Shown here: positions 10,169 to 44,994 of the stretch, piece by piece
How positions within the stretch are numbered: the stretch's first letter is position 1
How the letters are laid out: the number at the start of each line of letters is the position of its first letter
Assembly (NCBI GenBank): GCA_913061275.1
Contig: CAJXSR010000021.1
Span: forward strand, 1-64,000
From: an uncultured Paracoccaceae bacterium
GTDB taxonomy: Bacteria > Pseudomonadota > Alphaproteobacteria > Rhodobacterales > Rhodobacteraceae
Reading direction: 5' to 3'
Length of the DNA stretch: 64,000 nucleotides
The notes under the pieces: generated by a model
The model's database searches: none
What the model saw: only the letters and a program-made list of their open reading frames with translations
Told to the model about the DNA's origin: nothing
Position numbers and translations under genes: made by a program

Positions 10169-10217
10169 AAAGGTTTGACGTAAAGTATTCTGATACTCTT
10201 GCAAAGGAAAACAGGTG

Positions 10218-14279: not shown

Positions 14280-14554
14280 TATTCCGCTTTTTGCTCTGTA
14301 ATGATCGACAGCACTTCCGTGGCCCAATCACCGATGATGGGAATGAAATCAATATTGCGCAGGAAATAGACCAGCAATGACACCAAAACCGTGGCCCCGA
14401 TTACAGACCCCAGCCCGAACGCCAAACCGCGCATGAAGTTGAACCAGATCAGTTTGGTTAAGGAGTTATGCATCCGTATAAAACGGTGGCTGTTCATCTT
14501 GTGAACTTCCGCTTTTAACGATGCAAGATCGTCATGCCATTGTTCGTCGCTCAA
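14279..14554 (-). CDS. DUF5665-like small membrane protein
   Basis: MNSHRFIRMHNSLTKLIWFNFMRGLAFGLGSVIGATVLVSLLVYFL. Confidence 0.75.
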   Translation of the reverse strand: MSDEQWHDDLASLKAEVHKMNSHRFIRMHNSLTKLIWFNFMRGLAFGLGSVIGATVLVSLLVYFLRNIDFIPIIGDWATEVLSIITEQKAE

Positions 14555-15159
14555 TATTCCACCCCAATTTGCGCCTTAACACCTGATCTAAACGGATGTT
14601 TAATCAGTTCCATCTCTGTCACCAAATCAGCAATTTCGATCAGGTCTGGTTTGGCATTACGGCCCGTCAAAACCACATGGGTCATGTGGGGTTTTTGGGT
14701 GGCCAGAAATTCAATTACCTCGTTCACATCCACGTAATCATAGCGAATGGCGATGTTGATCTCATCCAGCAGCACCATGGAATTGCTTTCGTCCAAAATC
14801 AGTTCCTTAGCCCTGGCCCAAGCGGCTTGCGCCATTTCGGTATCGCGGGTTTTATCTTGGGTTTCCCAAGTAAAGCCTTCGCCCATGGTGTGGAACGAAC
14901 ACAGGTCGGTGTGGTTTTTTAGGATCAAATCACGTTCACCCGTGGACATGCCACCCTTGATAAACTGCACCACAGCAGATTTCATACCGTGGGCGATATG
15001 GCGAAAAATCATGCCGAAAGCGGCGGATGATTTACCCTTGCCCTTGCCAGTATGGACAATGATCAGGCCCTTTTGTTCGGTCTTGGTTGCCATGATTTTA
15101 TCACGTGCGGCCTTTTTCTTGGCCATCTTCATTGCGTGGCGGTCGGTATCTTCTGACAT
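14551..15159 (-). CDS. cobO: Cob(I)yrinic acid a,c-diamide adenosyltransferase
   Basis: GLIIVHTGKGKGKSSAAFGMIFRHIAHGMKSAVVQFIKG; VLLDEINIAIRYDYVDVNEV; VVLTGRNAKPDLIEIADLVTEM. Confidence 0.96.
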   Translation of the reverse strand: MSEDTDRHAMKMAKKKAARDKIMATKTEQKGLIIVHTGKGKGKSSAAFGMIFRHIAHGMKSAVVQFIKGGMSTGERDLILKNHTDLCSFHTMGEGFTWETQDKTRDTEMAQAAWARAKELILDESNSMVLLDEINIAIRYDYVDVNEVIEFLATQKPHMTHVVLTGRNAKPDLIEIADLVTEMELIKHPFRSGVKAQIGVEY

Positions 15160-15170
15160 GGGTGTGGCCT

Positions 15171-15563
15171 TTATGTTTTTGAATGAGGGTATTTTGGCAG
15201 ATCATCGCGAATATGCAACCAGTCTAATTTATCGTCATAGTGGACATGAAATTCTGGCTTGAAATCCTGTGGATTATCCAAGCTTGCGGCATATAGGTGA
15301 ATTTCACCTACGTAATGTTCGGCCTGAAAGGCCATAGGTGTGCCGCAGGTTTCGCAAAAATGGCGTTGCACGGCCTTAGATGAACGGTAGACTTTTGGGG
15401 TTTTTCCTGTCCATTTGAAGTTGGTTAACTGAACGCCGATAAAAGCAGTGACAGGGGCTGCACAGTTACGGCGGCAATCATCGCAATGACAAAAACAAGC
15501 CCATGTTTCATCGCCCGAATATTCCCAAGATGTAACCCCGCATAGGCAATGGCCTTTGGTCAT
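15171..15563 (-). CDS. GFA family protein (glutathione-dependent formaldehyde-activating enzyme-like)
   Basis: GHCLCGVTSWEYSGD, CFCHCDDCRRNCAAPVTAFIGV, HFCETCGTPMAFQAE zinc Cys motifs. Confidence 0.92.
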   Translation of the reverse strand: MTKGHCLCGVTSWEYSGDETWACFCHCDDCRRNCAAPVTAFIGVQLTNFKWTGKTPKVYRSSKAVQRHFCETCGTPMAFQAEHYVGEIHLYAASLDNPQDFKPEFHVHYDDKLDWLHIRDDLPKYPHSKT

Positions 15564-15564
15564 G

Positions 15565-15894
15565 TTAGTTCCTTAAAAAAGCTAGCTTTGTTGTTAAAAT
15601 ATCTACCAGAGCATCCTGCATATACTCATAATTGTCGGGAACGCCCAAGCATCTGATTGGTTTATCCCGAAGGGCTGTGCCAAATAACGCGTTAAGTTTT
15701 TTCTTTTGCTTTAACTCCATCACGATAATTTTGTCTGCCCATTCGATTTCATCCAATGAAACCACTGTATCAGCGTCAAGGCCAACACCAGCGCAATCTG
15801 TATTTACCATGCCCCAACCTGCAACCAATTCTGCAGCTGTCGGGCTGCGTTTGCGGGCTTTTCCACAAATGAACAGAATGTTGGGTTTGGTCAC
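15565..15894 (-). CDS. Low-molecular-weight protein tyrosine phosphatase-like protein
   Basis: NILFICGKARKRSPTAAELVAG: loop at the usual CxxxxxRS position; GLDADTVVSLDEIEWADKIIVMELKQKKKL, IRCLGVPDNYEYMQ. Confidence 0.82.
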   Translation of the reverse strand: MTKPNILFICGKARKRSPTAAELVAGWGMVNTDCAGVGLDADTVVSLDEIEWADKIIVMELKQKKKLNALFGTALRDKPIRCLGVPDNYEYMQDALVDILTTKLAFLRN

Positions 15895-18800
15895 AAAAAC
15901 CCCGCAATCCGCGCTTGTGCAGAATTTGATTTAGGCACCCACAGCCCGCGATCTATCGCTTCTTGCAGGCGTTCGGCCATTTCACGTAAGGCGGTAGGGT
16001 TATGTTCTTCGATAAAATTCCGCGTGTTGTCATCTTCTAGAAACGCATGATGCACTAAATCAAAGTGATGGTTTTTGACGGCTCCTGTGGTGGCGGCAAA
16101 GGCAAACAGGTAATCTAGAGTTGCGGCCATTTCAAACGCACCTTTATAACCGTGACGTTTGACCCCTTCGATCCATTTCGGGTTAACCACACGGCTGTGA
16201 ACGACACGACCGATTTCCTGATCAAGCGTGCGGATTACAGGCCGTTCAGGGCGTGAATGATCGTTGTGATAGATCGGGCGATCAACGCCTTGCAAAGATT
16301 TTACCGCCGCCGCTGCCCCACCTTCGAACTGGTAATAATCGTCGCTGTCCAGCAGGTCATGTTCGCGGTTGTCCTGATTTTGCACAATCGCATCAACCCG
16401 TGATAATTGCGCTTCCAAAGCACCGCGCGCACGCGTACCTTGGACGTCTTTACTGTAAGCGTAGCTGCCCCATTCAAGGTAGGCATCGCCCAGATCGGCG
16501 CTGTCATTCCACAGGCGTTCATCAATCATCGCCTGCAAGCCTGCCCCATATGCGCCAGGTTTTGCGCCAAACACACGGTATTGCTCTTCGCCCTTGGCGT
16601 GCGCTGCAGCGGCAGGGTTCATATCATGCGGTTCATCTTGTTCCATCACGGCGCGTGCAGCACTGTCCACCAAAGCAATCAGTTGTGGGAAAGCATCGCG
16701 GAAAAAGCCCGAGATGCGCAGGGTCACATCCACGCGTGGGCGATCCAGCACCGACAACGGCAAGATTTCAAACCCCGTCACACGGCGATTGGCACTGTCC
16801 CATTTCGGTTTTACACCCATCAGGGCTAATGCTTGCGCAATATCATCACCGCCTGTGCGCATATTGGCGGTACCCCATGCGGTCAGCAACATGGATCGCG
16901 GCCAATCGCCGTGATCTTGCAGATGCCGTTCAATCAGCAGGTTCGCGGATTTCCAGCCCAAGGCCCAAGCGGTGGGGGTGGGAACCGCGCGGCTGTCGAC
17001 CGAGAAAAAGTTGCGGCCTGTGGGCAGAACATCCATGCGCCCGCGCGTGGGGGCACCCGATGGTGCAGGGGCGACGAACTGCCCGTTTAGGGCGGTTAGA
17101 AGCCCCTTTATTTCTGATGGGCCACAGGCCTGAACGGTTGGGCGAACGCTTGCAATAATCCCGTCAAGCACGGCCTGACTATGCGAACCAACATCTGCTT
17201 GCCCTGTAATCATCAACCCTGCCAACAGCTCAATACGTTCAACGGTATCGCCTGCACTGCGCCATGTATCGGTTGTAACAGCCTGCAATGCTTGCGGCTT
17301 TGCAGCTGTCCACTTTGCGGACATATCGCAATCCAACGGGTCGAAACCCAATTCTAAATCCTTGGCAATGGCGCGTTGCAAAGACGCGTCTGCCCCTTTG
17401 CCAGTACCGCGTGGCACTCGCACTAAAGCTTGAATAAGATCAGCCTCTAAACCTGCTTCAGGGGACTGCCCAAAGATGTGTAACCCGTCACGGATTTGCG
17501 CCTCTTTCAGCTCACACAGATATTCATCCAGCTTGGCCAGATCGCGATCTTCATCATCGCCTGTCAGCCCTGCGTCTTCATCCAATCCCGTAACCGACGT
17601 AAGAGATAAGATCTCACGGCGGATATGTTCTATACGGCGCGGATCAACCCCTGCGGCTTCATAATATTCATCCACCAAAGCCTCTAGGTCGCGCAATGGC
17701 CCGTAAGTTTCGGCCCTTGTCATCGGCGGTGTCAGGTGGTCGATAATCACTGCGGATGTGCGCCGCTTGGCTTGTGTACCTTCGCCGGGGTCATTTACAA
17801 TAAAAGGATAGATATGCGGCGTTGGCCCAAGGATAACTTCGGGCAGGCAAGTGTCTGACAGGGCCAGTGCTTTGCCCGGCAACCATTCCAGATTGCCGTG
17901 TTTGCCCATGTGGATCAGCGCATGTGCGCCAAACTGATTACGCAGCCAGAAATAGAAAGCTAGATAGTTATGCGGCGGCACCAGATCAGGCGAATGATAG
18001 GTATCTTTGGGATCAATATTATAGCCACGCGCGGGTTGCACACCGACAATCACATTGCCAAAAGTGAAGATGGAAAGTGAAAAATGACCGCAATCAACTT
18101 CACCACGGGTATAAAATGGGTCTTGTTCAGGTTTGCCCCAACGGTCTTCGATGCGTTCACGCACCTCCCACGGCAGTTGTCCGTAAGCAATCTGGTAATC
18201 GGCCATAGACATGTCCACACCACCCGTGCGCGTTGCGCGATCAGTCAGCCAGTTGGTGGGGCCAGCCATGATCTGATCCATCAGGGCTTTGCTGTTTTTG
18301 GGAATGTTACGCAGGCTGTAACCCTGATCGGCCAGCGCGTTTAGCGTATGAACCGTCCCTGCAGGCGTATCCAGCCCAACACCATTTGCCAACCGCCCGT
18401 CTTTGTTGGGGTAATTCGCCAAAATAATCCCAACTTTGCGATCCTTGGCGGGCGTATGACGCAAGTTCGCCCAGTTTTGTGTAAGGTCTGCGACAAATTC
18501 AATACGGTCACCCCGCGCGCGATAAGTCGCGATGGGGCACTGGGTGGCGTCGTCAAAATACGCCTCACCTTTGAAGGAAACCGCCCGTGACAAGACGCGT
18601 CCGTCAACCTCTGGTAGGGCTACGTTCATTGCGATGTCCCGCGCAGACAAACCGTTTAACCCATCTTCCCAGCCCTGTTCTGATGCTGCGGAAAGTACTA
18701 CCTGAAACACAGGTGCGGCGTTGGCGGCAGACATAGTAAAGGGGTTTGACGCTCCTTTCCCATGTTCATCTTGATGGGGTGAGCCAACTGCGAAGCTGGT

Positions 18801-19592
18801 GCAGTTCAGAATAACGGAAGGGGTAGCCGTTTCAAACAGGCTTTGTAATGTGGCCACAGATACTTCGTCTTTTAGGGATGCTACAAAGATCGGCAAAGGG
18901 TTCAATCCGCGCTTCAACAAGCTTTTGACCAGCCTGTTGATCGGGTTCAATCCTGCACCTTGTACAAGCGCGCGGTAAAATATGATGGGGACGATGGGTG
19001 CGCCATCTGTCCAGTTAACTTGCGCTGCACTCAAGTCAGCAATGCCCGCCCCCGGCCAATAAACCCCTGCGCGCAACAGTGGTTTAGCTCCTTCAGGCTT
19101 ATCAGAACCATCCAACATGGCATTGGCATAACGCAGGAAGTTTGCAGCGTTTTGCGGCCCACCTTCGACCATATAAGCCCATAATGCTTCCCAATCTGCG
19201 CGATTTACCGTGGAAAGATCCCACAACTCTTGATCGGGCTTATCGTCACCTGGCAAAGCAACAAAGGGAATGCCAGCGGCCCCAAGACGGGATGCATATT
19301 GTTCCAGTCCATATTTCCAGTAACCTGTTCCACCCAGAACGCGGGCAATCACCAGTTTTGATTTCTGCGCACAGTTTTCAATGTGTAGATCAACCGACAT
19401 CGGGTGTTGCAGGTGCATCATGCTGGCAAGGCGTAAGCTGTTGCCAGCCTCTAATGTGGAATGTGCTTCAGAAAGCCCCGCAAGTTCGGTATCAGCGGCG
19501 GAAATGAACACGATGTCAGCAGGGGTTTGGCCCAGATCAAAGGGTTCTGAACCATCGTTTATGGCCCCCGGTGTTGCGGCAAGAAGGTGCAT
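15891..19592 (-). CDS. cobN: Cobaltochelatase subunit CobN
   Basis: 1233 aa CobN/BchH-type; GKHGNLEWLPGKALALSDTCLPE, GEGTQAKRRTSAVIIDHLTPPMTRAETYG. Confidence 0.97.
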   Translation of the reverse strand: MHLLAATPGAINDGSEPFDLGQTPADIVFISAADTELAGLSEAHSTLEAGNSLRLASMMHLQHPMSVDLHIENCAQKSKLVIARVLGGTGYWKYGLEQYASRLGAAGIPFVALPGDDKPDQELWDLSTVNRADWEALWAYMVEGGPQNAANFLRYANAMLDGSDKPEGAKPLLRAGVYWPGAGIADLSAAQVNWTDGAPIVPIIFYRALVQGAGLNPINRLVKSLLKRGLNPLPIFVASLKDEVSVATLQSLFETATPSVILNCTSFAVGSPHQDEHGKGASNPFTMSAANAAPVFQVVLSAASEQGWEDGLNGLSARDIAMNVALPEVDGRVLSRAVSFKGEAYFDDATQCPIATYRARGDRIEFVADLTQNWANLRHTPAKDRKVGIILANYPNKDGRLANGVGLDTPAGTVHTLNALADQGYSLRNIPKNSKALMDQIMAGPTNWLTDRATRTGGVDMSMADYQIAYGQLPWEVRERIEDRWGKPEQDPFYTRGEVDCGHFSLSIFTFGNVIVGVQPARGYNIDPKDTYHSPDLVPPHNYLAFYFWLRNQFGAHALIHMGKHGNLEWLPGKALALSDTCLPEVILGPTPHIYPFIVNDPGEGTQAKRRTSAVIIDHLTPPMTRAETYGPLRDLEALVDEYYEAAGVDPRRIEHIRREILSLTSVTGLDEDAGLTGDDEDRDLAKLDEYLCELKEAQIRDGLHIFGQSPEAGLEADLIQALVRVPRGTGKGADASLQRAIAKDLELGFDPLDCDMSAKWTAAKPQALQAVTTDTWRSAGDTVERIELLAGLMITGQADVGSHSQAVLDGIIASVRPTVQACGPSEIKGLLTALNGQFVAPAPSGAPTRGRMDVLPTGRNFFSVDSRAVPTPTAWALGWKSANLLIERHLQDHGDWPRSMLLTAWGTANMRTGGDDIAQALALMGVKPKWDSANRRVTGFEILPLSVLDRPRVDVTLRISGFFRDAFPQLIALVDSAARAVMEQDEPHDMNPAAAAHAKGEEQYRVFGAKPGAYGAGLQAMIDERLWNDSADLGDAYLEWGSYAYSKDVQGTRARGALEAQLSRVDAIVQNQDNREHDLLDSDDYYQFEGGAAAAVKSLQGVDRPIYHNDHSRPERPVIRTLDQEIGRVVHSRVVNPKWIEGVKRHGYKGAFEMAATLDYLFAFAATTGAVKNHHFDLVHHAFLEDDNTRNFIEEHNPTALREMAERLQEAIDRGLWVPKSNSAQARIAGFL

Positions 19593-19594
19593 CT

Positions 19595-20050
19595 TTACAG
19601 GACCTTTTCCATGAACAAACTAACAGGGTCTTCTTCATATGGGCCGAATTTGCCGCATACGTTGTAGCCCAGTGATTTATATAGCGCGACAGCGGCGGCC
19701 AGTTTATCACCAGTTTCCAGTTTTACATGTGCAAACCCTTGGGCTTTTGCCTGTGTTTCAAGATGTGCCATCAAGATTTTGGCAATGCCCAAACCACGGG
19801 CATGATCGGGTACATAAAGCCGCTTAACCTCACCATAAGCACCCTCATTCACCAGTGCGACACAGCCCATTGCCTTTCCGCCTTTGCGGGCGACATAGAA
19901 ACACACTTTATCGTCCAGCAATTCATCCGCCGTAAAGGTGAAACACTCGTCAGCCGTATAAACCGCCCGCAATGCGACCTCACTGCCGTTAATCAGTTTA
20001 TGCCCGTCATCGGTGACGGGGCTTTCTAGTGTTATACGGATTTCGCTCAC
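19595..20050 (-). CDS. GNAT family N-acetyltransferase
   Basis: GEVKRLYVPDHARGLGIAKILMAHLETQAKAQGFAHVKLETGD. Confidence 0.9.
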   Translation of the reverse strand: MSEIRITLESPVTDDGHKLINGSEVALRAVYTADECFTFTADELLDDKVCFYVARKGGKAMGCVALVNEGAYGEVKRLYVPDHARGLGIAKILMAHLETQAKAQGFAHVKLETGDKLAAAVALYKSLGYNVCGKFGPYEEDPVSLFMEKVL

Positions 20051-21114
20051 GCTTGTAGGGCCGTAGTTATGGTGGCTTGATCCAGACCAGCTTGCCCGAT
20101 GACAACCAACCGTGTAACGCGCGGGTTGCTGCCAAAAGGTTTGTCGAAATAGCTGTCGATGCGTGGCCCGACCGCTTGTACTGTTAGGCGCATGGGCTTG
20201 CCTTCAACGGCGACAAAGCCTTTCAATCGTAAAATATCATGTTCACGGATGATGTTTGCAACTTGTGTCGAAAATGCAGCTACATTTGTAATCTCAGCAC
20301 GTTCCACCACGAAGCTTTCAAATTCGTCGTGGTCGTGATCGTGGTGATGATGATGGTGATCATCATGGGGGTCGTCATCATCGTGGTGGTGATGGTGATG
20401 CGCATGACGTGCTTCTATATCATCCTCAGCACCAATACCTTGACCCAGCAACACATCCACGGGCAGAGCCCCCATAGTGGTCTTGACCACCTGTACCCCT
20501 GCGCGGCTTTCGGCTTTCAGTTTGGCAACCAGTGCAGAAGCGTCTTCTTCGCCCAACAAATCGGATTTGTTCACTACAATCATATCGGCGCACGCCACCT
20601 GATCTTCAAACAATTCGGACAGCGGGGTTTCATGGTCTAGGTTTTCGTCTTGTGCGCGCTGGGCATCCACGGCTTCCACAGAGTGGGCAAAGCGACCTTC
20701 AGAAACGGCTTTGCCGTCTACCACTGTGACCACGCCATCAACAGTGACTTTGGTCTTAATGTCGGGCCAGTTGAACGCCTGCACCAAGGGTTGCGGTAAC
20801 GCAAGGCCAGAGGTTTCGATCACGATATGATCGGGTTTTGGATCACGAGCTAAAAGCTGCTCAATAGTCGGAATAAACTCATCCGCCACGGTGCAGCATA
20901 TGCACCCATTTGACAGCTCTACCACATCATCTTCGGTGCAGGTTTCATCACCGCAGCCTGTTAGAATGTCGCCGTCAACACCAAGGTCGCCAAATTCATT
21001 GATGATTAGCGCAATGCGCTTGCCGTGTGCGTTTTGCAGCATGTGGCGGATCAGGGTGGTTTTGCCAGCACCTAAGAAGCCGGTGACAACAGTTGCAGGG
21101 ATTTTTTTGGCCAT
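20047..21114 (-). CDS. cobW: CobW-type GTPase / metallochaperone, cobalamin biosynthesis
   Basis: TVVTGFLGAGKTTLIRHML, NGCICCTVADEF (CxCC), NKSDLL; His/Asp-rich stretch. Confidence 0.96.
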   Translation of the reverse strand: MAKKIPATVVTGFLGAGKTTLIRHMLQNAHGKRIALIINEFGDLGVDGDILTGCGDETCTEDDVVELSNGCICCTVADEFIPTIEQLLARDPKPDHIVIETSGLALPQPLVQAFNWPDIKTKVTVDGVVTVVDGKAVSEGRFAHSVEAVDAQRAQDENLDHETPLSELFEDQVACADMIVVNKSDLLGEEDASALVAKLKAESRAGVQVVKTTMGALPVDVLLGQGIGAEDDIEARHAHHHHHHDDDDPHDDHHHHHHDHDHDEFESFVVERAEITNVAAFSTQVANIIREHDILRLKGFVAVEGKPMRLTVQAVGPRIDSYFDKPFGSNPRVTRLVVIGQAGLDQATITTALQA

Positions 21115-21239
21115 TAGGGATTCCGATTATGATGTGGGTTGCAGTTAAGAGACTTCATTATAAGCCAGCACCTTGCGTGGTCTTAAAGGGTGGGTTACTG
21201 GATTGGCACTTGATTTTGTTTGATGCGAAAGAGAAATTA

Positions 21240-21632
21240 TTGCGCCACACCGTTTTCATTTGTTCTACTTGTCGTGAAAACGATGAAGCTGCCCCTAAAG
21301 GCGAAGGATTGGCATTTGAATTAAAAGCTTTATTTGCTAATTCAGATAACCCTAAAATTCGCGATTTTGATGTACAGACTTTTGAATGCATGTCTGCATG
21401 TGCAAATCCAACAGCGATTTCATTTAGGGCAAACGGCAAGGCGGTATATCTGTTTTCAGGTATTGATCCCGCAACCGACCACAACGATATTCTGGCTTTT
21501 GCAGACTTGTACCAAGCCGCCGCTGATGGATGGATCGAAGATGCACGCCCTTGTGGAAGGCTTCGATTTTGCCTTATAGGCCGCATTCCTGCGCAAGATG
21601 CCAAACCGCATTCCATTACTGAACCTGAATAA
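21240..21632 (+). CDS. DUF1636 family protein, cobalamin-cluster associated
   Basis: VFICSTCRENDEAAPKGEGLAFELKAL ... CMSACANPTAISFRANGKAVYLFSGIDP; TTG 21240 proposed, alternatives ATG 21129/21132. Confidence 0.8.
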   Translation: MRHTVFICSTCRENDEAAPKGEGLAFELKALFANSDNPKIRDFDVQTFECMSACANPTAISFRANGKAVYLFSGIDPATDHNDILAFADLYQAAADGWIEDARPCGRLRFCLIGRIPAQDAKPHSITEPE

Positions 21633-22122
21633 GCATTTCTGCGTTAAGAGGTGTGCCATCAACGCTTATGGGACGGTGATCGTTTGCATTTAATGATACT
21701 GAAATAACCGTATCACCTGCTGGTAAAGTGCCGATATGCATCCAGGGTGAATATAGCCGGGAAATGCGTTTATCATTTACATAAACATGGGCGTGACCTT
21801 CACCTGTTATATTTTCTTGATTGACGCTTTTGGGTGCGAAAGTGAAATTTGTTGTAACAATTTCCAAGTTCCACCCAGACACAGCATCAGGGTGCAGTAC
21901 AAATTCAAGTGTTGGGGCATTTATATCGTTTTGAATATCAACAGATTCGTTGTGATTGTGTGTGTGATCAACAGTTGTCGCCGTAAGAATGTCGACTTCT
22001 GAAGCCGCTTGTTCCCCATGTTCGTGGCCACTTAAAGTGATGTTGTTTCCAGCAGCAACTAAAAACCCAATACCGCCGCCGAAAAATAACCCTATGACAA
22101 ACAGTGCAACTTTACTTTGCAT
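21616..22122 (-). CDS. His-rich, N-terminally anchored or exported protein of unknown function
   Basis: N-terminal hydrophobic segment; SGHEHGEQ, DHTHNHNES; GHAHVYVNDKRISRLYSPWMHIGTLPAGDTVISVSLNANDH; internal ATG at 22122 preferred; same strand and adjacent to cbtA. Confidence 0.72.
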   Translation of the reverse strand: MQSKVALFVIGLFFGGGIGFLVAAGNNITLSGHEHGEQAASEVDILTATTVDHTHNHNESVDIQNDINAPTLEFVLHPDAVSGWNLEIVTTNFTFAPKSVNQENITGEGHAHVYVNDKRISRLYSPWMHIGTLPAGDTVISVSLNANDHRPISVDGTPLNAEMLIQVQ

Positions 22123-22198
22123 AACTAACCTCTTGGTTTGAATATAACAGTGAATTATCGCCCGCCGTTTTGTTAGCTGGCAAGCGATGGTAACATAT

Positions 22199-22885
22199 TT
22201 AAGGGGTATCCGTCTTTTCGCTATTTTGCCAGAAATATCCAGCAAAAAGCCCAAGCAAAACCCAAGCGGCTAAACCGACACCTAAAGCACGGCTGGCAAA
22301 CAAGCTGGCTAGTTCAGGCGGTGTCGTTCCTTGGAATACGTCAGGATGAGGTGCACCGATGATATGGGGCATAAGTAAAAGCACAATAGCGGCCCCCCAT
22401 GCTTTCCAATTTTGCCCAAATGCGATCAATGCAAGGGAAAGCCCTGTCATGGCGATGGTTGAAAACCACCAAACTTGGCGCACAGAGACGTCCGCCGCAG
22501 CACTTCCCGGAACTTCAGGTGGCAGGCTTATTGCTGGTGCTAAATGTACCGTGATAAATCCCGCAAGGCCCCATAAAATACCCGAACGCGCTGAGGTTAT
22601 CACACCGCGTTCATCTGCCAGTGCCATTGCGGCAACCAGCATCAAACCGTAGCCAGTATAAATCAAGGCCGAGAATAGAATGCTTAAGCCATCGCGCAAT
22701 GCGTCAAACGAAAATGCTGGACCATGCGAAGAACTTCCGTCTGTTCCGAAATGTAGTTTGGCGCCTGTTTCATAAAGTTCAGCATGAAGCAAAACGGGTT
22801 GCACAAACACGAATTGCAGCAAAGCGGCAATCAGCCCCGCTGCAAAACCAGCGAATAATGCGCTGGTTAATATGCGTGTAAACAT
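22199..22885 (-). CDS. cbtA: CbtA family protein (predicted cobalt transporter subunit)
   Basis: Multi-TM FTRILTSALFAGFAAGLIAALLQFVFVQPVLLHAELYE...; downstream of cbtB and the B12 riboswitch. Confidence 0.93.
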   Translation of the reverse strand: MFTRILTSALFAGFAAGLIAALLQFVFVQPVLLHAELYETGAKLHFGTDGSSSHGPAFSFDALRDGLSILFSALIYTGYGLMLVAAMALADERGVITSARSGILWGLAGFITVHLAPAISLPPEVPGSAAADVSVRQVWWFSTIAMTGLSLALIAFGQNWKAWGAAIVLLLMPHIIGAPHPDVFQGTTPPELASLFASRALGVGLAAWVLLGLFAGYFWQNSEKTDTP

Positions 22886-22888
22886 CTG

Positions 22889-23071
22889 TTAGTGGCAGGG
22901 AAAGCCTGATGCGTGGCGCACGTCGTGTGCTGCACCATGCAATGTATTTGCCTGAACGTGGCCTGCAAAAATCATAATGCCAAGACCCAGAAGTGCAGTG
23001 AATGCAATGGCCAAGGTGTTAGAACTTGCGTGGGTATTTGCCCGTACTTTTGATTGTGTAATCGTTGTCAT
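22889..23071 (-). CDS. cbtB: CbtB family protein (predicted cobalt transporter subunit)
   Basis: 60 aa, one TM, C-terminal His-containing tail HGAAHDVRHASGFPCH; first gene after the riboswitch. Confidence 0.92.
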   Translation of the reverse strand: MTTITQSKVRANTHASSNTLAIAFTALLGLGIMIFAGHVQANTLHGAAHDVRHASGFPCH

Positions 23072-23097
23072 AATTATCTCCTACGCCGTCACTCCCG

Positions 23098-23340
23098 ACA
23101 GCTTTGGTTAAAGTCACGCAAGGCTGGTTTCCTGACTTGTGGGTCAATGCGCGCCATCTGCCTTCCCGATATTGCTATCAGTGGCGTAGTTGACGGGCGC
23201 TCTCCACATACAGTCGCGGGGGCGGTTGTGGTTTTAGGCCCCTTTTGGGTCGTCCCTGTCCACATTCCCATTTGATCCCCAGACATTTGATGTCTTAGCG
23301 GGGAACCATGCCCCTTCTTAATGACCTTGCTAGTGCCATT
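23098..23340 (-). promoter_or_regulatory. Cobalamin (B12) riboswitch
   Basis: Minus strand has accgcccccgcgactgta, gccactgatagcaatatcgggaaggc and the B12-box-like agtcaggaaaccagcc in the canonical order, just upstream of cbtB. Confidence 0.93.
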
Positions 23341-36070: not shown

Positions 36071-38194
36071 TTACTCGTCTTTTGTAATCTCTTCGCCAGT
36101 TTCCTGATCGACAACTTTCATGCTCAAACGCACTTTGCCACGGTCATCAAAGCCCATCAGTTTAACTTTCACTGACTGGCCTTCTTTAACCAGATCGTTC
36201 GGGTGGTTGACCCGCTCGTTGGCCATTTGGGATACGTGCACAAGCCCGTCACGTTTGCCAAAGAAGTTCACGAATGCACCGAAGTCCATAACCTTTACAA
36301 CTTTACCAGTGTAGATCGCACCAGCTTCTGGCTCGGCTGCGATTTCCATAATCATTGCGCGGGCTTTTTCGATTTGTTCACCGTTTGATGACGCGATTTT
36401 GATTACGCCGTCGTCGTTGATGTCAACTTTAGCACCAGATACTTCACAAATCTCACGGATCACTTTACCGCCCGAACCGATCACTTCACGGATTTTTTCA
36501 GGGTTGATTTGGATGGTTTCAATGCGTGGAGCATGCTCAGAAAAAGAACCCGCTTCGGTCAAAGCATTGGCCATCTCATCAAGGATATGCAAACGGCCGT
36601 CTCTGGCTTGCGCCATGGCTTTTTCCATAATCTCAGTCGTGATGCCAGTTACTTTGATGTCCATTTGCAATGACGTGATACCGTTTGCAGTACCTGCCAC
36701 TTTAAAGTCCATGTCGCCCAAGTGATCTTCGTCACCCAAGATGTCAGTAAGTACTGCGTACTCGCCGCTGTCTTGTAGGATCAGACCCATAGCAACACCA
36801 GCAACTGGTGCTTTTAGTGGAACGCCTGCGTCCATCATAGACAATGAGCCACCACAAACGGATGCCATTGAAGATGAACCATTGGACTCTGTGATTTCAG
36901 ATACAACGCGTACTGTGTAAGGAAAGTCGGTTGCAGGAGGAAGAACAGCTTGCAATGCGCGCCATGCCAATTTGCCGTGACCAATTTCACGACGGCCCGG
37001 GCCGAAGTTACGACCACACTCACCAACAGAGTATGGAGGGAAATTGTAGTGCAACAAGAATGGTGAGCGGTATGTACCGTTCAGCGCATCAATCATTTGC
37101 TCGTCGTCGCCAGTGCCTAATGTGGTCACAACAAGCCCCTGAGTTTCACCGCGTGTAAACAAGGCAGAACCGTGTGTACGAGGCAGAATACCAGTTTCAG
37201 AAACGATTTGACGAACTGTTGTCAAGTCGCGGCCATCAATGCGTTTTCCGGTTTTAACGATGTCACCACGAACAACTTCAGCTTCCAATTTTTTCAGGCA
37301 TGTGCCCAAATTGTTGTCTTCTAACTGTTCTTCGCTCAAAGCTGCCTTAATCAGATCACGTGCCGCAGAAATTGCAGCTGTGCGTTCTTGTTTATCCGTG
37401 TTGCCAAATGCTGCACGAATAGCTTTTTCACCAGCTTTTTTCACAACGGCATAAAGATCGCTATAATCAGGTGCCTGATAATCATACGGCTCTTTGGCTG
37501 CATCTTCGGCCATGTCGATAATCATATCAATCACAGGCTGGATTTGTGCATGGGCAAAGTTAATCGCACCCAGCATTTCATCTTCTGACAGCTCATAAGC
37601 TTCAGACTCAACCATCATAACTGCGTCTTTTGTACCAGCTACTACAAGGTCAAGACGTTGCTCTGGCTTGTTGCGCAGATCGTGCATGTCATCAACTGTT
37701 GGGTTTAGAATGTAATCACCATCTTCAAAGCCAACACGGCAAGATGCGATTGGGCCCATGAACGGCGCGCCTGACAATGTAAGGGCGGCAGAGGCTGCGA
37801 TCATCGCTACCATATCTGGGTCATTCACAAGGTCATGTGACAGAACTGTCAATGTTACCTGTGTTTCATGCTTGAAACCTGGGATAAACAACGGGCGAAT
37901 TGGACGGTCGATCAAACGTGCGGTTAGTGTCTCTTTTTCAGTAGGACGGGCTTCGCGTTTGAAAAAGCCACCAGGGATTTTACCAGCAGCATAGTATTTT
38001 TCTTGGTAATTTACGGTCAGTGGAAAGAAGTCCATGCCCGGCTTTTCTTTCTTGGCAAACACGACGGCCGCCAATACAGAAGTTTCACCCAAAGTGGCAA
38101 TTACTGTGGCGTCAGCTTGACGCGCGATTTTGCCAGTTTCTAGCGTTAGGGTTTCTTCACCCCATTCGATTGATTTTTTAACAACGTTAAACAT
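36071..38194 (-). CDS. pnp: Polyribonucleotide nucleotidyltransferase (PNPase)
   Basis: [27 protein letters not shown] region [27 protein letters not shown]1 region [29 protein letters not shown]. Confidence 0.98.
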
Positions 38195-38211
38195 ATATGT
38201 TTCCTAAGATA

Positions 38212-38242
38212 GGGAGCACTCCTTGGCGTTCCAAGGTCTCCC
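38212..38242 (-). promoter_or_regulatory. pnp 5' leader hairpin
   Basis: ccttgg-cgtt-ccaagg inner stem flanked by ggga/tccc arms, 18 nt upstream of the pnp start; second hairpin gtggc-N6-gccac at 38252-38267. Confidence 0.5.
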
Positions 38243-38547
38243 GATAAAATAGTGGCCCCATTGCCACCGACCCCTATTCCTATGCGTCCACCAGGGTCAA
38301 AGCGGTGCGTTTCAGATAGGCGGGCGTATATAGGTAAAATGTGGGTTTGGAAAGGGGGTTGGTTTGGGGCGTCAAATCGGTCTCGTACCTTACATCAGCC
38401 AACGTGGTGTATACACCCCTTATATCTGTAGTCAGGCGCGACCTTGTTTTACGGTTGATGATGTAAAATGGCAAAAGGGTATAAAGCTGACAAAGCTACA
38501 GTTTCCGAAGTCTCAACAAAATGGCAAACTGAATTACACGCGGCTAT

Positions 38548-39330
38548 TCAGTTTGCGTGGCCCGCACGTTTCACCGTTGCAGTAGGTACAATGTGTACCC
38601 GCCCAGACGAACCGATGCTTACGTCTGCTTCTACACCGTAAAGCTGTCCTAATAAATCGCGTGTCAGCACGTCAATGGGTTTTCCATGAGCAATGACTTG
38701 CCCCGCATCAATCGCTATTATCCGATCTGAAAAATGCGCAGCTAACGTTAAATCATGCATTGCCACAGCGACAATCGCACCCATTTCCTGCGCGTAACGG
38801 CGAACATGTTCTAGAACCAACAATTGATGACGTAAATCAAGGGCTGCGGTAGGTTCATCAAGCAACAAAATTTTTGGGTTTCGAAAAAGTGCTTGGGCAA
38901 GATAAACAAGCTGTCGTTGCCCACCACTAAGGGCATCAAGTGTTCTGGTGTGTAGATGGTAAAGGCCAAAGGCATTAAGGTGGGTCATCGCTTCATTCAC
39001 ATACGATTCGGGTATTGTTAAACCTAGCGAGTTTAAGCGACCCAACAATACAACCTCAATCACTGTTAGGGATGATGTTGCGCCATTGTCTTGTGCCATA
39101 TATGCGATTTCGCGGTTTTGCGTGTCTTTATCAATCATAGTGCCGCAAAAAGACAACGTGCCTTTTGCGGGGATCAGCCCAGCAATAGCTTTAAGCAACG
39201 TAGATTTGCCTGCGCCATTGCTTCCAATAATCCCATTGATTTGACCCGCAACCCATCTATCCCCAATATTATTCAAAACAGGATTGTCAGAGTAAGAAAC
39301 CGTTAGGTTTTGAATAGTTAAGTTCACCAA
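38548..39330 (-). CDS. ABC transporter ATP-binding protein (FecE/BtuD/HmuV-like)
   Basis: Walker A GSNGAGKST, signature LSGGQRQLVYLAQAL, Walker B KILLLDEPT. Confidence 0.94.
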   Translation of the reverse strand: MVNLTIQNLTVSYSDNPVLNNIGDRWVAGQINGIIGSNGAGKSTLLKAIAGLIPAKGTLSFCGTMIDKDTQNREIAYMAQDNGATSSLTVIEVVLLGRLNSLGLTIPESYVNEAMTHLNAFGLYHLHTRTLDALSGGQRQLVYLAQALFRNPKILLLDEPTAALDLRHQLLVLEHVRRYAQEMGAIVAVAMHDLTLAAHFSDRIIAIDAGQVIAHGKPIDVLTRDLLGQLYGVEADVSIGSSGRVHIVPTATVKRAGHAN

Positions 39331-40406
39331 TGGCTTCGCCCACTTCGTAAAATTAACCCGAATAAAAAGGGCACGCCAATAACAGCTGTTACGATCCCTA
39401 TGGGCACTACGCCGCCCGGCGAAACCAATTTCGATAAGATAGATGCGCCAAGCAAAATTAAAGCACCAGATAAAGCTGCCATAGGCAATAAAACACGTTG
39501 ATCTTCACCAACAAGCATTCGCGCAATATGCGGTGCTACTAACCCCACAAAACCAATGGTGCCCACAAATGCAACAGCACCTGCCGTCAATAATGCCACA
39601 ATGAAAAACATCTTAAGCCTAAGCTTTCTTACATTAACACCAACAGCTTCGGCACGATCATCCCCCAAACGCAAACCCGTCAGCTGCCAAATGTTTGGCA
39701 ATACGGCTAAAGTACATAGAATAAAAATAGTGGCTATAATGGGCACATTACTCCAGCTTGCTTTCAACAATGATCCAAACAGCCAAAACACAATAGACTG
39801 AAGCACTTCAGGTGAAGCCAGATATTGAATTAGGGATTGTAATGATTGGAACAGAAAAAGTGTCGCAATGCCGGCCAGTACCATCACTTCTGCGGTCATG
39901 CCGCGCACGCGTGAAAAAATATACACAAGCCAAGCTGCAACACCGCACATAACAAATGCGGCAAGCGGGATTGATAGGAAAGGTACTAACGGTAGGCTGA
40001 TCCCTGTTAAGATTACCAATGCGGCACCAAACCCAGCCGCGGCCGAAAACCCTAACGTGTACGGACTGGCCAAGGGATTGCCGAGTATTGTTTGCATATG
40101 CACCCCAGCCACACCCAATGACATGCCCACCAACATGGCCATTAACGTCATAGGCAAGCGAATATCCCAGATGATTATTGCAGTCGATGACGATACTTTG
40201 CCAGGTGTAAAGATGCCTGACATCACTTCTGAAATGCTAAGAAATGCAGGGCCAATTAAGATATCGGCAATGATTGTACACAAAAGCAACACAACCGTAA
40301 CTACAAGCACTTGTAATCTGTGTTTTATAAGCAACGTAAAACCAGAGACGACAGCATGTGCCGCCTTTGGTTCAGTTGTAATAGGTGTGTTTTCACACAC
40401 GCTCAT
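39324..40406 (-). CDS. ABC transporter permease, FecCD/BtuC family
   Basis: DIRLPMTLMAMLVGMSLGVAGVHMQTILGNPLASPYTLGFSAAAGFGAAL; GTIGFVGLVAPHIARMLVGEDQRVLLPMAAL. Confidence 0.95.
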   Translation of the reverse strand: MSVCENTPITTEPKAAHAVVSGFTLLIKHRLQVLVVTVVLLLCTIIADILIGPAFLSISEVMSGIFTPGKVSSSTAIIIWDIRLPMTLMAMLVGMSLGVAGVHMQTILGNPLASPYTLGFSAAAGFGAALVILTGISLPLVPFLSIPLAAFVMCGVAAWLVYIFSRVRGMTAEVMVLAGIATLFLFQSLQSLIQYLASPEVLQSIVFWLFGSLLKASWSNVPIIATIFILCTLAVLPNIWQLTGLRLGDDRAEAVGVNVRKLRLKMFFIVALLTAGAVAFVGTIGFVGLVAPHIARMLVGEDQRVLLPMAALSGALILLGASILSKLVSPGGVVPIGIVTAVIGVPFLFGLILRSGRSHW

Positions 40407-41509
40407 GGAAGTTTGGTCATGTATGTGCCTTGGAATTCAACGGGCATATACTTCGCAAAGAAAGCTTCTACGTTTGCCTGTGGATCAACGTCTGCAAACG
40501 CTTCTGGGTACAAGGCTTTGGCCATGAACTGCAAAAAAGCAAAATCGTACAATGTCCGGTTGCCGCCGTGATAGATGGCGTAGATATCGCCTGATTTTGC
40601 CGCATCCAAACCATCCCAACCTGGGCGTGTCAGGTAAGCTGCAAGACGTTCATGCGTCAAAGCAGCGTTGACGCCTGGGCCCATAATTATGGCTTGCTCA
40701 CGCCCAACCCAACCAGAACCAGCCATGAAAATCGCTTGTGGGTTTTGGGCCAAAACATACTCTGGACTAAGTTTGCCCCAAGAGCTGATTTGTCCATTTG
40801 CAATATTGATGGCACCAAGTTGGTCAACCACACTACCCCATTGGGTGCCTGAATAGGAATTATCGATATCGCCCGGGCCTTTGCGGCCAAGTTCTACATA
40901 AACCTTTGGCGCTTTGGATTTATCCAAACCAGCCAAACGCGCCTCAACATCGGCCACCGCATTAGCATATTCATCTGCCAACTGTTTTGCACGCTTTTCA
41001 GCGCCTAAAATCTTTCCGAAAAGAATTGTGGATTGTACATGCTTTTCAACAGTTTGTGCATTGTAATCCAGAACAACAATTGGAATACCAGCGGCTTCCA
41101 TTCGTTCTGCTACTTCACCCAAAGCCTTATACTGCCAAGCGGCAAAGATCGCTACATCTGGGTTAGCTGCAACAGCGGCTTCAAAAGAAAATGTACCGGA
41201 TTCTATTTCACCAACGTCAGTTAATTTTTCTAAACGTGGTGTCACAGAAACATAGTTTTTCCACTGAAGATTACGCCAGCCTTCCCAAGTATCTTTAGAG
41301 ATCGCAACGACACGATCATACGCGTCAGGCCCTGCAACTGCAAAGAAGTCTTCGTAGTAAAACCCCAGCAAGATGCGTTCAGGGTTTTCAGGGATTTCAA
41401 CCGTACGATTAAGCGTATCAGTAAGTTTAATTTTGTCGGCAAAGGCCGGAAAAGCCAACAGCATAGCAAGGCCAGCGGTTGCGCAAAGGCGCAAGATAGT
41501 ATTTATCAT
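40403..41509 (-). CDS. ABC transporter substrate-binding protein (FepB/BtuF-like helical-backbone type)
   Basis: Signal peptide; DTLNRTVEIPENPERILLGFYYEDFFAVAG ... EAAVAANPDVAIF. Confidence 0.92.
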   Translation of the reverse strand: MINTILRLCATAGLAMLLAFPAFADKIKLTDTLNRTVEIPENPERILLGFYYEDFFAVAGPDAYDRVVAISKDTWEGWRNLQWKNYVSVTPRLEKLTDVGEIESGTFSFEAAVAANPDVAIFAAWQYKALGEVAERMEAAGIPIVVLDYNAQTVEKHVQSTILFGKILGAEKRAKQLADEYANAVADVEARLAGLDKSKAPKVYVELGRKGPGDIDNSYSGTQWGSVVDQLGAINIANGQISSWGKLSPEYVLAQNPQAIFMAGSGWVGREQAIIMGPGVNAALTHERLAAYLTRPGWDGLDAAKSGDIYAIYHGGNRTLYDFAFLQFMAKALYPEAFADVDPQANVEAFFAKYMPVEFQGTYMTKLP

Positions 41510-41537
41510 GAGTATTCCTCAATTCAATAGTTCAAAT

Positions 41538-41553
41538 GCCGTAATGTTACGGC
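41538..41553. promoter_or_regulatory. Perfect palindrome, candidate metalloregulator operator
   Basis: gccgtaa-tg-ttacggc, 29 bp upstream of the SBP start codon. Confidence 0.5.
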
Positions 41554-41572
41554 GCATCAAGTTAGGTATTCT

Positions 41573-41938
41573 TTAGATGTGAACTACTGGAGGGGCTCTT
41601 GCTGACCATGGAAGAAGAGGGGCAGATATTGTAGTGAAAACCTCATTGGAAAAACGAACCTTTTCGGGGCTCGTGTAGTTCCCAATGACTATTGGATGTG
41701 ATGCATCCAAAGCAAAGATATCAATTTCGCGACAGAACGGGCAATCATGACCATGAGATGTTTCATGGTCAGCAAGACAAAGATCATCAAGCGATCCGCC
41801 CGTATCCAAATACTGTGCTAGTTGTGGATCAACTAAATTAATGTGAGATGCAGACGCAGAAACAAGCAGCGTACTGCTTAAAGCCATAAACGCGGCACAA
41901 ATAACGCCACAAATGTAATTTAACGTTCTGATCCTCAT
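41573..41938 (-). CDS. Small exported Cys/His protein, DUF2946-like
   Basis: Signal peptide-like N terminus; CLADHETSHGHDCPFCREID; C-terminal ARAPPVVHI. Confidence 0.65.
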   Translation of the reverse strand: MRIRTLNYICGVICAAFMALSSTLLVSASASHINLVDPQLAQYLDTGGSLDDLCLADHETSHGHDCPFCREIDIFALDASHPIVIGNYTSPEKVRFSNEVFTTISAPLLPWSARAPPVVHI

Positions 41939-42082
41939 TTACGCACACCTAAATAAGCTGTCTTGGTCTGTATATGTGTAAAAAGCCGCATTATTATGTG
42001 GTTAATCAAATGATGGTTCTCGATCGGGTTCCTACGGACAGTTGAATGTGCGCTAATCTAAAAGGTTTTCCGCTTTCATACC

Positions 42083-43474
42083 TTAAAATTGACTTTGTAA
42101 ACCTACTCTAAAAAAGCTTCTATAACTGTTGTGCAAACTGTTATTCGAAGTTGTTTTTTGATATGTGTATCCGATTGTTGGATTAAAGCCAAAATAGGAT
42201 AATTTTAATAATTTCACAGAAACACCTACTGTTAACTTTTTGTCTATTCTACGGTCAGACGTCAAAAATGGCCTGTCGAAAAGTGTCCGATCATACCCTA
42301 AAATAAATTCTGGTTGAAAACTTAAGTTTTGAGGGTTCAGCTTATATGAAATTTCTGCACCCATCCGAACATTCGCGATTTCGGCAGACAGCGATGAACG
42401 ATCAGAAGCATACAGCTTGAATGAAAATAAATCCTCACTTGAAAATAACTTATCATATTGAATGTCCATCATTTTTGCAGTGGATGTTCGTTCGGTCAGG
42501 TCTTTCCTAAATCGTTTTTCATAAGCGAGCTTGAACAATAATCTTGAGGTTTGATTGAGCGGGATTGATTTTCTGGCAGCTACCCCAGCCGTGTTTGCCA
42601 ACACATTACCGCCGTACCAATCTTGGGAAAAATCGGTCGCAAACACCATCTGACGCAACCATATATGGTCACTGTTTTTCCCAAAGGCATAACCAGCCCG
42701 CATTGACGCTCTGTGATAATCATAATCTGACGCTTTAACCCCAAGTTTTTCTTGTTCAGCAGTTGGGTAAATTTTATAAGCAACACCTGAAACATCTGCG
42801 GACCAAAAAAATGTGACATCGGTTGCTTTTTTCTTTTGATAAGAAATACCAAACCCGTAATTAAAGCCAAGACCTTTAATAGACTTCGCATTGGGATCTA
42901 AGATAAATTCTAGATCATTAATTATAATTTCATTTGCAGAAGAGCCGCCATTTATATTTGAGGACGGTGTCACCCCAAAAGAAAGTGAACGTCGCCACGG
43001 TGAGTTTTTCCTCACCTCACCTAATAGGCTTACAGCAAACCGCTTCTTATTTACATCGCGCGTATAATTCAGGCTTTTACGTAACCAATACTCGGCCATT
43101 AGCTGGCGATTTGCATTGGCTGCCGCCACACCTAAAGCCAAAGCGGAATTGTGTTTTTGATCTTGTGTAGCTGATAGCTTATTTGCAGTTTTTGCAGCAT
43201 CATGCGATGCTTTAAAACCACCTTTTATATTAAAGACAGATGAAAGAAACAAATAGGCTTGTACACTATTTGGGCTTTCTTTCAGAATTGCTTTAGCAAC
43301 CGTTTCGGCATATGTCACATCACCGTTTACCAATGCAATCTGGCCGACTTCCATCGCTTTCTCTAGCGAAACCTCTTGACTTAGTACTGGGCTAAAAAGC
43401 CCAGACAAAGTGATAATTAGCAGCAATATAGAAACAAGCGCCGAGCCAGTATTAAAGCATTTGGTTCTGTTCAT
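42083..43474 (-). CDS. Slam-like surface lipoprotein assembly modulator (DUF560; type XI secretion)
   Basis: Signal peptide, TPR-like N-terminal domain (AETVAKAILKESPNSVQAYLFLSSVF), then beta-barrel WRRSLSFGVTPSSNINGGSS ... FNPTIGYTYQKTTSNNSLHNSYRSFFRVGLQSQF ending in aromatic F. Confidence 0.82.
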   Translation of the reverse strand: MNRTKCFNTGSALVSILLLIITLSGLFSPVLSQEVSLEKAMEVGQIALVNGDVTYAETVAKAILKESPNSVQAYLFLSSVFNIKGGFKASHDAAKTANKLSATQDQKHNSALALGVAAANANRQLMAEYWLRKSLNYTRDVNKKRFAVSLLGEVRKNSPWRRSLSFGVTPSSNINGGSSANEIIINDLEFILDPNAKSIKGLGFNYGFGISYQKKKATDVTFFWSADVSGVAYKIYPTAEQEKLGVKASDYDYHRASMRAGYAFGKNSDHIWLRQMVFATDFSQDWYGGNVLANTAGVAARKSIPLNQTSRLLFKLAYEKRFRKDLTERTSTAKMMDIQYDKLFSSEDLFSFKLYASDRSSLSAEIANVRMGAEISYKLNPQNLSFQPEFILGYDRTLFDRPFLTSDRRIDKKLTVGVSVKLLKLSYFGFNPTIGYTYQKTTSNNSLHNSYRSFFRVGLQSQF

Positions 43475-44208
43475 CGCCTTGCGATAAAGGCCCCAGTTTC
43501 CCGGCTTACACCGCCAGCTGTGTTAAGCTCTAGAACGCCAGCAGTTTGGTTAGCACTTCCCCCTGCAAGTATACCTGCATAGGTGCCAGTTGTGCCAAGT
43601 GTATTGGATGCAGAACCAGCATATCGCCCAGATGTGTCTAGTGTGCTAGGGCTTAACGTTACCGCAGCAAACGGCGTAGCGCCACTGTTTCGGTTTGTGA
43701 TCGTGCCATTCACCCGATTTGTCGCAAAATTTGCTTGGATATTGACATTACCACTCACGGCAAAGCTATCATTCGTTGCAGTTGTTTGAACTATACCTGC
43801 GTAAGACCCGTTGTAACTTGCCGTACCTGTCGTTGGTAGCACCAGCGTCGCCGTGCGCTTGATCACGGTACCACGTACCCCTTTACCAGCATTATTTACT
43901 TCGCCACCAAACGACGCTTCAACGCCAGAATCTTGTGCAAGATACACAATATATATTGTTCCACCTACTGTACGAGAATATGCAGCAAACGGTCCATTAT
44001 TAAGGGCAGGAGTACTTGTATACGTTGCAGCACCACCAGGTAAACCACTTGCGACGATTGTTGCATTACCCACTGTTCCAACCACATTGGTTAGATTGTT
44101 TTTGGTAACAGTTGTTGGCCCAAGTGTTACTGGCAAAGCGCCGCCACCACCGCCACAACCAGAAATTGCAATGGACATAATTGCAATGCCAAAAAATTTA
44201 CTTCTCAT
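43471..44208 (-). CDS. Lipoprotein with TbpB-like beta-barrel signature; probable Slam substrate
   Basis: Lipobox ISGC followed by GGGGG tether; C-terminal AGILAGGSANQTAGVLELNTAGGVSRETGAFIARR; 4-bp overlap with the Slam-like start. Confidence 0.75.
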   Translation of the reverse strand: MRSKFFGIAIMSIAISGCGGGGGALPVTLGPTTVTKNNLTNVVGTVGNATIVASGLPGGAATYTSTPALNNGPFAAYSRTVGGTIYIVYLAQDSGVEASFGGEVNNAGKGVRGTVIKRTATLVLPTTGTASYNGSYAGIVQTTATNDSFAVSGNVNIQANFATNRVNGTITNRNSGATPFAAVTLSPSTLDTSGRYAGSASNTLGTTGTYAGILAGGSANQTAGVLELNTAGGVSRETGAFIARR

Positions 44209-44674
44209 TATAAGTTCCCAAAATTTATATTTTTATCAAATAATTGTTTCTAAACCTGTTTATTATTTATTAACTACTAAAAGAAACAACACAACAATGA
44301 ATTTTGTCATAAAAAACAAATATAAGTGAATAGTGCATTATTAAATTTTTAAGAATAATTAGGTGGATATTATACGGGTTTCTTTTTTCTTCTTTGAATA
44401 TACACACATTTTCATGAAAACTAATAACCACAATATTTCAACCCTAACGAATATGTAATAAATTTCCCCATCAAATACAGCTAAATATGTAAAAACTTTA
44501 GGCATAACTAAGAAATCAGAAATCCGTGTTGGCTTAGATGATTTATTCAAACGACACTTTTGGTTACTACTTATCCAATAAAGTCAGGTATTTTACCACA
44601 CATTTAAAGAAAAATTACCAACAAAAACAACATTCTAACCCTATGTCCCAACTGGGACATCACCCCTAAAACGA

Positions 44675-44704
44675 AAAACCCGCTCCAAATGGAACGGGCT
44701 TTAA
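44675..44704 (-). terminator. rpsO Rho-independent terminator
   Basis: Minus strand agcccgttcc-attt-ggagcgggt followed by ttttcgtttt. Confidence 0.8.
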
Positions 44705-44724
44705 ACACTTGAATGCAGTCCGGC

Positions 44725-44994
44725 TTAGCGGCGGATGCCTAGGCGTTTGATTAGGTCCTGATAACGGGCCTCATCTTTGCTTTTTGCGTAGTCTAGCAGC
44801 TTACGACGCAGGGCAACCATTTTCAAAAGACCACGACGAGAGTGGTTGTCTTTTTTGTTGGTTTTAAAATGCTCTGTCAGCGTTTTGATGCGGGACGTTA
44901 GGATTGCAACCTGAACTTCAGGTGAGCCAGTGTCACCTTCTTTGGTTGCATAGTCTTTAATTAGCTGTGCTTTCAGCTCTGGTGTTATCGACAT
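44725..44994 (-). CDS. rpsO: 30S ribosomal protein S15
   Basis: [74 protein letters not shown]. Confidence 0.98.

Follow-up and report, generated by a model that had tools for sequence, protein, structure and literature searches.

We analyzed a 64,000-nucleotide window from an uncultured Paracoccaceae bacterium (contig CAJXSR010000021.1 of assembly GCA_913061275.1), in which six open reading frames (ORFs) lie on the minus strand between positions 38548 and 44208. It is likely that these form two independent modules: a four-gene, leader-controlled ATP-binding cassette (ABC) importer unit, probably for copper (38548-41938), and a Slam protein with its lipoprotein (42083-44208). The importer unit opens with an ORF which, judged from its sequence, looks like a metal-sensing leader peptide of the CruR/CutF (DUF2946) type. 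We see an even chance that the unit exemplifies a widespread alphaproteobacterial importer of copper or a copper chelate, of the FecBCD class, that is switched on by a nascent-chain, metal-sensing arrest peptide whose RAPP-stalled ribosome sits on the anti-Shine-Dalgarno bases (in the window, the Pro-Pro codons), and that works without a TonB-dependent receptor. An initial annotation of the window had listed five or six same-strand genes here, and we confirmed six ORFs with the coordinates and overlaps that it gave; its naming of the genes and its remark that no TonB-dependent receptor accompanies them were also borne out, but its proposal that the lipoprotein serves the importer was not.

The putative leader peptide and its proposed RNA switch

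The leader (41573-41938, 121 residues) is the first gene of the putative importer operon, ahead of genes for a periplasmic substrate-binding protein (SBP), a permease and an ATPase, and the same order is found in most loci. The initial annotation recorded it as a small Cys/His exported protein; the protein is there, but its identity as a leader peptide was overlooked, and it belongs with the importer. Its N-terminus is hydrophobic and, by eye, signal-like. The C-terminal region runs from CPFC, a putative metal-sensing motif (residues 66-69, codons at 41732-41743), through 44 residues to RAPP, a putative ribosome-arrest site (residues 114-117, codons at 41588-41599), followed by VVHI and the stop codon, and a His-rich stretch (H58, H62, H64) immediately precedes CPFC. 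The Cys pair and the R, P and P of RAPP are invariant in an alignment of nine leaders. In CruR of Bordetella pertussis the CxxC-RAPP spacing is 45 and RAPP is a ribosome-arrest motif (PMC9426467); arrest at such a motif in vitro places its third and fourth residues, both Pro, in the P and A sites (PMC12992588).

This arrangement recurs widely. We scanned 85,462 species and drew from them 80 SBP loci in named genomes, 77 of which have more than 700 nt of upstream sequence; of these 77, 70 have a leader with R[AG]PP ahead of the SBP gene, across Alphaproteobacteria, with a CxxC-to-RAPP spacing of 44-47 residues wherever CxxC is present (two of the 70 are without it). Within the family such a leader is carried by 16 of the 17 loci with upstream sequence, a set that overlaps in part with the 77, and the 17th (L090) retains RAPP without CxxC. 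The same scan of 830 kb of reversed sequence gave no match to the leader motif. Two loci have tandem CruR-type leaders ahead of one importer (L089:9358-9696 with 10329-10697, and L091:8884-9237 with 9830-10183). In two others, L087:7723-8106 and L090:7433-7867, DUF2946-like leaders retain the C-terminal RAPP and have HCVQ in place of CxxC.

The leader is separated from the SBP gene by 63 nt. For the stretch that extends from RAPP as far as the SBP start, the predicted folding energy is -25.1 kcal/mol (z -4.25), a stability reached by none of 200 dinucleotide shuffles. In this putative RNA switch (41517-41593) the 5' arm (41576-41593) opens at position 41593 with the two Pro codons, and GAGG, the SBP Shine-Dalgarno (SD) sequence (41517-41520) in the 3' arm, is paired with the first four bases of this 5' arm. 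The register is conserved: in 53 loci the SD pairs with RAPP-proximal bases at a mean of 5.6 of 10 nt, vs 2.3 in SD-preserving shuffles, and in 48 of the 53 four or more SD positions have their partners in the RAPP codons or directly beyond them. In those 48 loci the partner bases lie at a median of +13 counted from the R codon, and 99.7% of them fall no further out than +24, where a ribosome stalling at RAPP would cover them or reach them with its leading edge. Since a MAFFT alignment of the switch region aligned the arms poorly, covariation was assessed by exchanging arms between loci. Among 34 dereplicated loci the true partners sum to -649 kcal/mol vs -414 +/- 19 for swapped ones, and with the SD part removed to -373 vs -292 +/- 14; in both cases none of 20,000 permutations was as low. 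Because related loci have similar arms, kinship would narrow the difference between true and swapped partners and thus works against such a result; the covariation, which persists despite kinship and also without the SD part, leaves the helix well supported.

Combining the observed gene order, the conservation and spacing of the motifs, the covarying helix, the register of RAPP and the copper-gene neighbours described below, we infer the following mechanism, in which both the arrest in the window leader and the sign of its response are proposed by analogy with CruR. The leader would be translated first, ahead of the SBP gene. When metal is scarce the ribosome would stall at the C-terminal RAPP and mask the partner bases of the SBP Shine-Dalgarno; with the helix thus open and the SD free, the importer would be produced. 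At high metal, binding of metal to the nascent leader at its CxxC/His motif would relieve the arrest; the ribosome would then depart, the helix close and the importer be turned off. The metal would most likely be copper, as the ion or a chelate, imported in the window genome without a TonB-dependent receptor; both its identity and the transport itself are predictions.

The closest precedent is CruR (DUF2946), which heads cruR-crtA-crpH in B. pertussis (PMC9426467; PMC13038864). Both leaders are exported ORFs with CxxC, about 45 residues and a C-terminal RAPP, and both are the first gene of a metal-acquisition unit. CruR differs in that the genes under its control encode a PepSY_TM protein and a TonB-dependent receptor and are regulated through Rho-dependent termination over a 162-nt gap, whereas the window leader heads an SBP-FecCD-ATPase importer over a gap of 63 nt that holds a helix closing the SD. 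Rho-dependent termination may act here in addition. That it is the principal device, as in CruR (PMC9426467), with the helix secondary, seems unlikely given the short gap and the strong covariation of a helix on the SD, although rhizobial loci speak for it: there the leader is parted from the SBP gene by a CRP-type or PepSY_TM gene, which puts the SBP out of reach of the SD helix and requires some other device.

The second precedent is the CutF-cutO system of Rhodobacter capsulatus, in which translation of a leader of the same family opens a stem-loop shielding the next SD (PMC9973294); the window shares with it a helix in which the 3' end of the leader pairs with the SD of the following gene. 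CutF differs in having CxxxC, in being copper-induced and in preceding not an importer but a multicopper oxidase for detoxification. Its reported sign, with copper favouring stalling, is opposite to the one proposed here, which makes the sign of the response the least certain step. A CutF-type sign for the window leader, with metal causing arrest and raising downstream expression, has this copper-induced precedent behind it (PMC9973294), but we think it rather improbable, slightly more so than a CruR-like primacy of Rho, as induction of an importer by excess metal makes little sense, and CxxC with a spacing of 44-46 residues fits CruR.

The importer and its likely metal

The three proteins encoded after the leader are those of an ABC importer, as the initial annotation had named them: an ATPase (38548-39330; PF00005, 2e-28), a FecCD-type permease (39324-40406; PF01032, 3e-86) and a YiuA-like class III periplasmic SBP (40403-41509; Peripla_BP_2, PF01497, 6e-21; PDB 4mo9, 6e-58, and 6b2x, YiuA, 4e-38). 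Copper is the metal toward which we lean, somewhat more firmly than not, on account of the genes in the neighbourhood. PCuAC genes occur at 14 of the 80 and at 5 of 18 SBP loci, and the 31 Slam loci that served as the control have none (p 0.007, a value that serves as a guide only because the loci are related to each other). PCuAC lies between leader and SBP in L083, L092, L093 and L154, and directly after the ATPase gene in rhizobia. PepSY_TM genes are present at 7 of the 80 SBP loci, in rhizobia between leader and SBP, and MbnP and MbnH accompany PCuAC in L087, L091 and L182. These copper-handling genes often stand within the same gene string as the importer.

It should be noted that several observations weigh against a leader-controlled copper importer. 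To the rhizobial loci and the opposite sign of CutF, both treated above, are added the following. The window leader scores 13.5 bits with PF11162 (DUF2946), under the cut-off of 23.7, although the orthologues in L033, L034 and L080 and a second leader in L087 exceed that cut-off, which speaks for the family assignment. The loci with PCuAC are phylogenetically clustered, and no copper gene adjoins the importer in the window. The SBP has as its nearest relatives ferric-siderophore binders, namely YiuA and the ferrichrome/ferrioxamine family PRK14048; conservation within the SBP falls on aromatic, Arg and His residues, and neither a Met nor a Cys pair is among the conserved positions. Cobalt and nickel genes are found near the importer in L090 (HupE, CobW) and in L091 (CbiM, HupE and a cobalamin riboswitch); in L091 they are combined with MbnP, MbnH and PCuAC.

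Copper might also be the wrong metal for this same leader-controlled importer, which could instead carry cobalt, nickel, some further metal or a ferric siderophore. We regard this as a possible but less favoured explanation, to which the YiuA/ferrioxamine-like SBP and the Co/Ni genes of L090 and L091 point, as do the His-rich stretch before CPFC in the window leader and the His-rich CutF-like proteins reported beside HupE/UreJ (PMC9973294). Its probability is lowered by the recurrence of PCuAC, PepSY_TM and MbnP/MbnH, often inside the importer's own gene string, and by the absence of HupE, CbiM and DUF1636 from all 80 named loci. The window also contains a cobalamin/cobalt group at 14551-23325, with genes that resemble CobO, CobN, CobW and CbtA by sequence, and a cobalamin riboswitch on the minus strand (23105-23325). 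Since that riboswitch lies about 15 kb from the importer unit, and since links to B12, Co or Ni are seen at three SBP loci only (L082, L090 and L091), a cobalamin or cobalt importer remains a rival to the preferred copper importer.

The Slam-lipoprotein pair as a probably separate module

Upstream of the leader on the same strand lies the second module. The Slam-like identity proposed initially for 42083-43474 is upheld by a SlipAM/DUF560 match (PF04575, E 6e-11) of 42.8 bits, above the cut-off of 22, and a profile search finds this to be the only Slam copy in the genome. Its N-terminus is predicted to consist of helical repeats resembling tetratricopeptide repeats, with a predicted local distance difference test score (pLDDT) of about 64-87 per block in a single-sequence model; the half of the same model that would hold the expected 14-strand barrel falls below 50 and is unreliable. 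The adjacent ORF (43471-44208) has the lipobox ISGC and the GGGGG spacer of the tethered lipoprotein that had been described. As to the TbpB-type domain for which the initial annotation had proposed a check, the C-terminal half matches slam_lipo of NCBIfam (2e-8), FHBP_C (7e-5) and TbpB_B_D (2e-4), all under the curated cut-offs, and the single-sequence AlphaFold model of the protein (pLDDT 34) is unusable for judging an 8-strand barrel. Some relatives from other genomes match the same families, likewise weakly, and in 27 of 32 loci the Slam gene has a lipoprotein ORF immediately 5' of it. The TbpB/fHbp-type match is thus weak but consistent, and 43471-44208 is best taken as the probable lipoprotein partner of Slam. 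In L095-L113 a lipoprotein ORF is directly upstream of nearly every Slam gene and a minority of these match TbpB_B_D or slam_lipo, so that counts based on these domains probably underestimate the cargo of marine type XI secretion systems (T11SS).

The pair and the importer are very probably not one system. Slam homologues occur in 12 other genomes of the genus (34 genomes) and the SBP in 3 others, and only the window genome has both. In the family (397 genomes) Slam is found in 202 and the SBP in 16; with the window genome left out, 9 of 15 SBP genomes have Slam vs 51% overall, which is chance level (Fisher p = 0.6). Slam and SBP genes are not adjacent in any other SBP genome of the family, where they are on separate contigs or come no closer to each other than about 60 kb, and no Slam gene is near the SBP in any of the 80 named-genome loci, with flanks of up to about 9 kb. 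Full-length relatives of the window Slam are about 22-29% identical to it, compared with up to 74% for the SBP, and a pattern scan of the 85,462 species revealed no close Slam relatives. These patterns suggest that the Slam-lipoprotein pair travels alone, with a history of its own.

The setting of the cluster bears on the proximity of the two modules. The whole cluster sits between rpsO and pnp (junction at 38194-44725 in the window); a simple scan for terminators and promoters gave no clear terminator in the interval that separates Slam and the leader. Among the 29 genomes of the genus with both genes on one contig the gap is 181-400 bp in 16, the closest relative by pnp (G016) having 181 bp, and 1.5-6.5 kb in 13, with the largest insert in the window genome. 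An insert of this size in 13 of 29 genomes marks a recurrent insertion site, at which neighbours need not be partners. We take the pair to be an ordinary marine-type (T11SS) family member that was inserted beside the importer at this junction. It resembles the marine 'cluster 3' T11SS loci of Rhodobacteraceae/Roseobacteraceae in having Slam and a lipoprotein with a putative C-terminal barrel-type domain; those loci are reported to occur with genes for DUF1194, glyoxalase and thymidylate synthase and not with metal or heme pathways (PMC12282271), whereas the window copy is at rpsO-pnp, beside an importer and without DUF1194. Small exported proteins with a DUF1194-like start (CGxALAL..DVSGSVD) adjoin Slam in the genus loci L020-L025, three of them in L021, and DUF1194-like neighbours are reported for marine T11SS loci (PMC12282271).

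The initial annotation had suggested that the Slam-exported lipoprotein may capture metal, heme or a siderophore for this ABC importer. Its adjacency and shared strand in the window genome favour such a link, as does the service of other Slam cargo (TbpB, hemophilin) in metal uptake by other bacteria (PMC8406197), but we consider it highly improbable. In related genomes, where the initial annotation had itself named a lack of co-occurrence as grounds for dropping the idea, the ABC genes and the pair are disjoint in the genus, co-occur at chance level and without adjacency in the family, and never meet at the 80 importer loci; we reject a Slam-importer pathway on these co-occurrence and adjacency counts. 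The distance between the Slam protein and its relatives, beside the close conservation of the SBP, and the reported separation of marine T11SS loci from metal and heme pathways argue in the same direction. So does the lack of a TonB-dependent receptor: the absence noted initially for the cluster extends to the whole 3.39 Mb genome (99.99% complete), in which neither the barrel (PF00593) nor the plug (PF07715) has a match. This absence is not unusual here, as a plug match is found in only 9 of the 34 genomes of the genus. The case illustrates that a Slam pair and an importer lying side by side should not be taken for a pathway unless their co-occurrence has been tested.

Known elements in a new combination

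Leaders of this family, arrest at RAPP and SD-shielding stem-loops are each already known, and it is their combination that is new. Besides CruR and CutF, the window leader resembles SecM and the RAPP-type ApdA/ApdP, small exported proteins that are encoded ahead of the gene they regulate and have their arrest motif close to the C-terminus (PMC10951233, PMC12992588), but that monitor protein export and not metals. The importer shares its SBP, permease and ATPase families with the YiuA and ferrioxamine/ferrichrome-type FecBCD importers, which differ in that no arrest-peptide leader is described for them in the literature searched. In their main text the CruR/CrtA/CrpH papers do not contain the term 'ABC', nor the CutF and RAPP-peptide papers 'ABC transporter', and a phrase search of the literature found no FecCD-type copper importer.

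Copper acquisition in prokaryotes is poorly understood (PMC12914433), and the roughly 70 loci in which a leader of CruR type is linked with an ABC importer offer a candidate for an inner-membrane copper importer. They also offer an RNA-protein switch whose register of RAPP codons, anti-SD and SD is precise and testable. If our reading is true, the arrest logic of CruR would be joined with the stem-loop logic of CutF in a bacterium without a TonB-dependent receptor, and the FecBCD class would include a copper importer that is easily mistaken for an iron-siderophore transporter.

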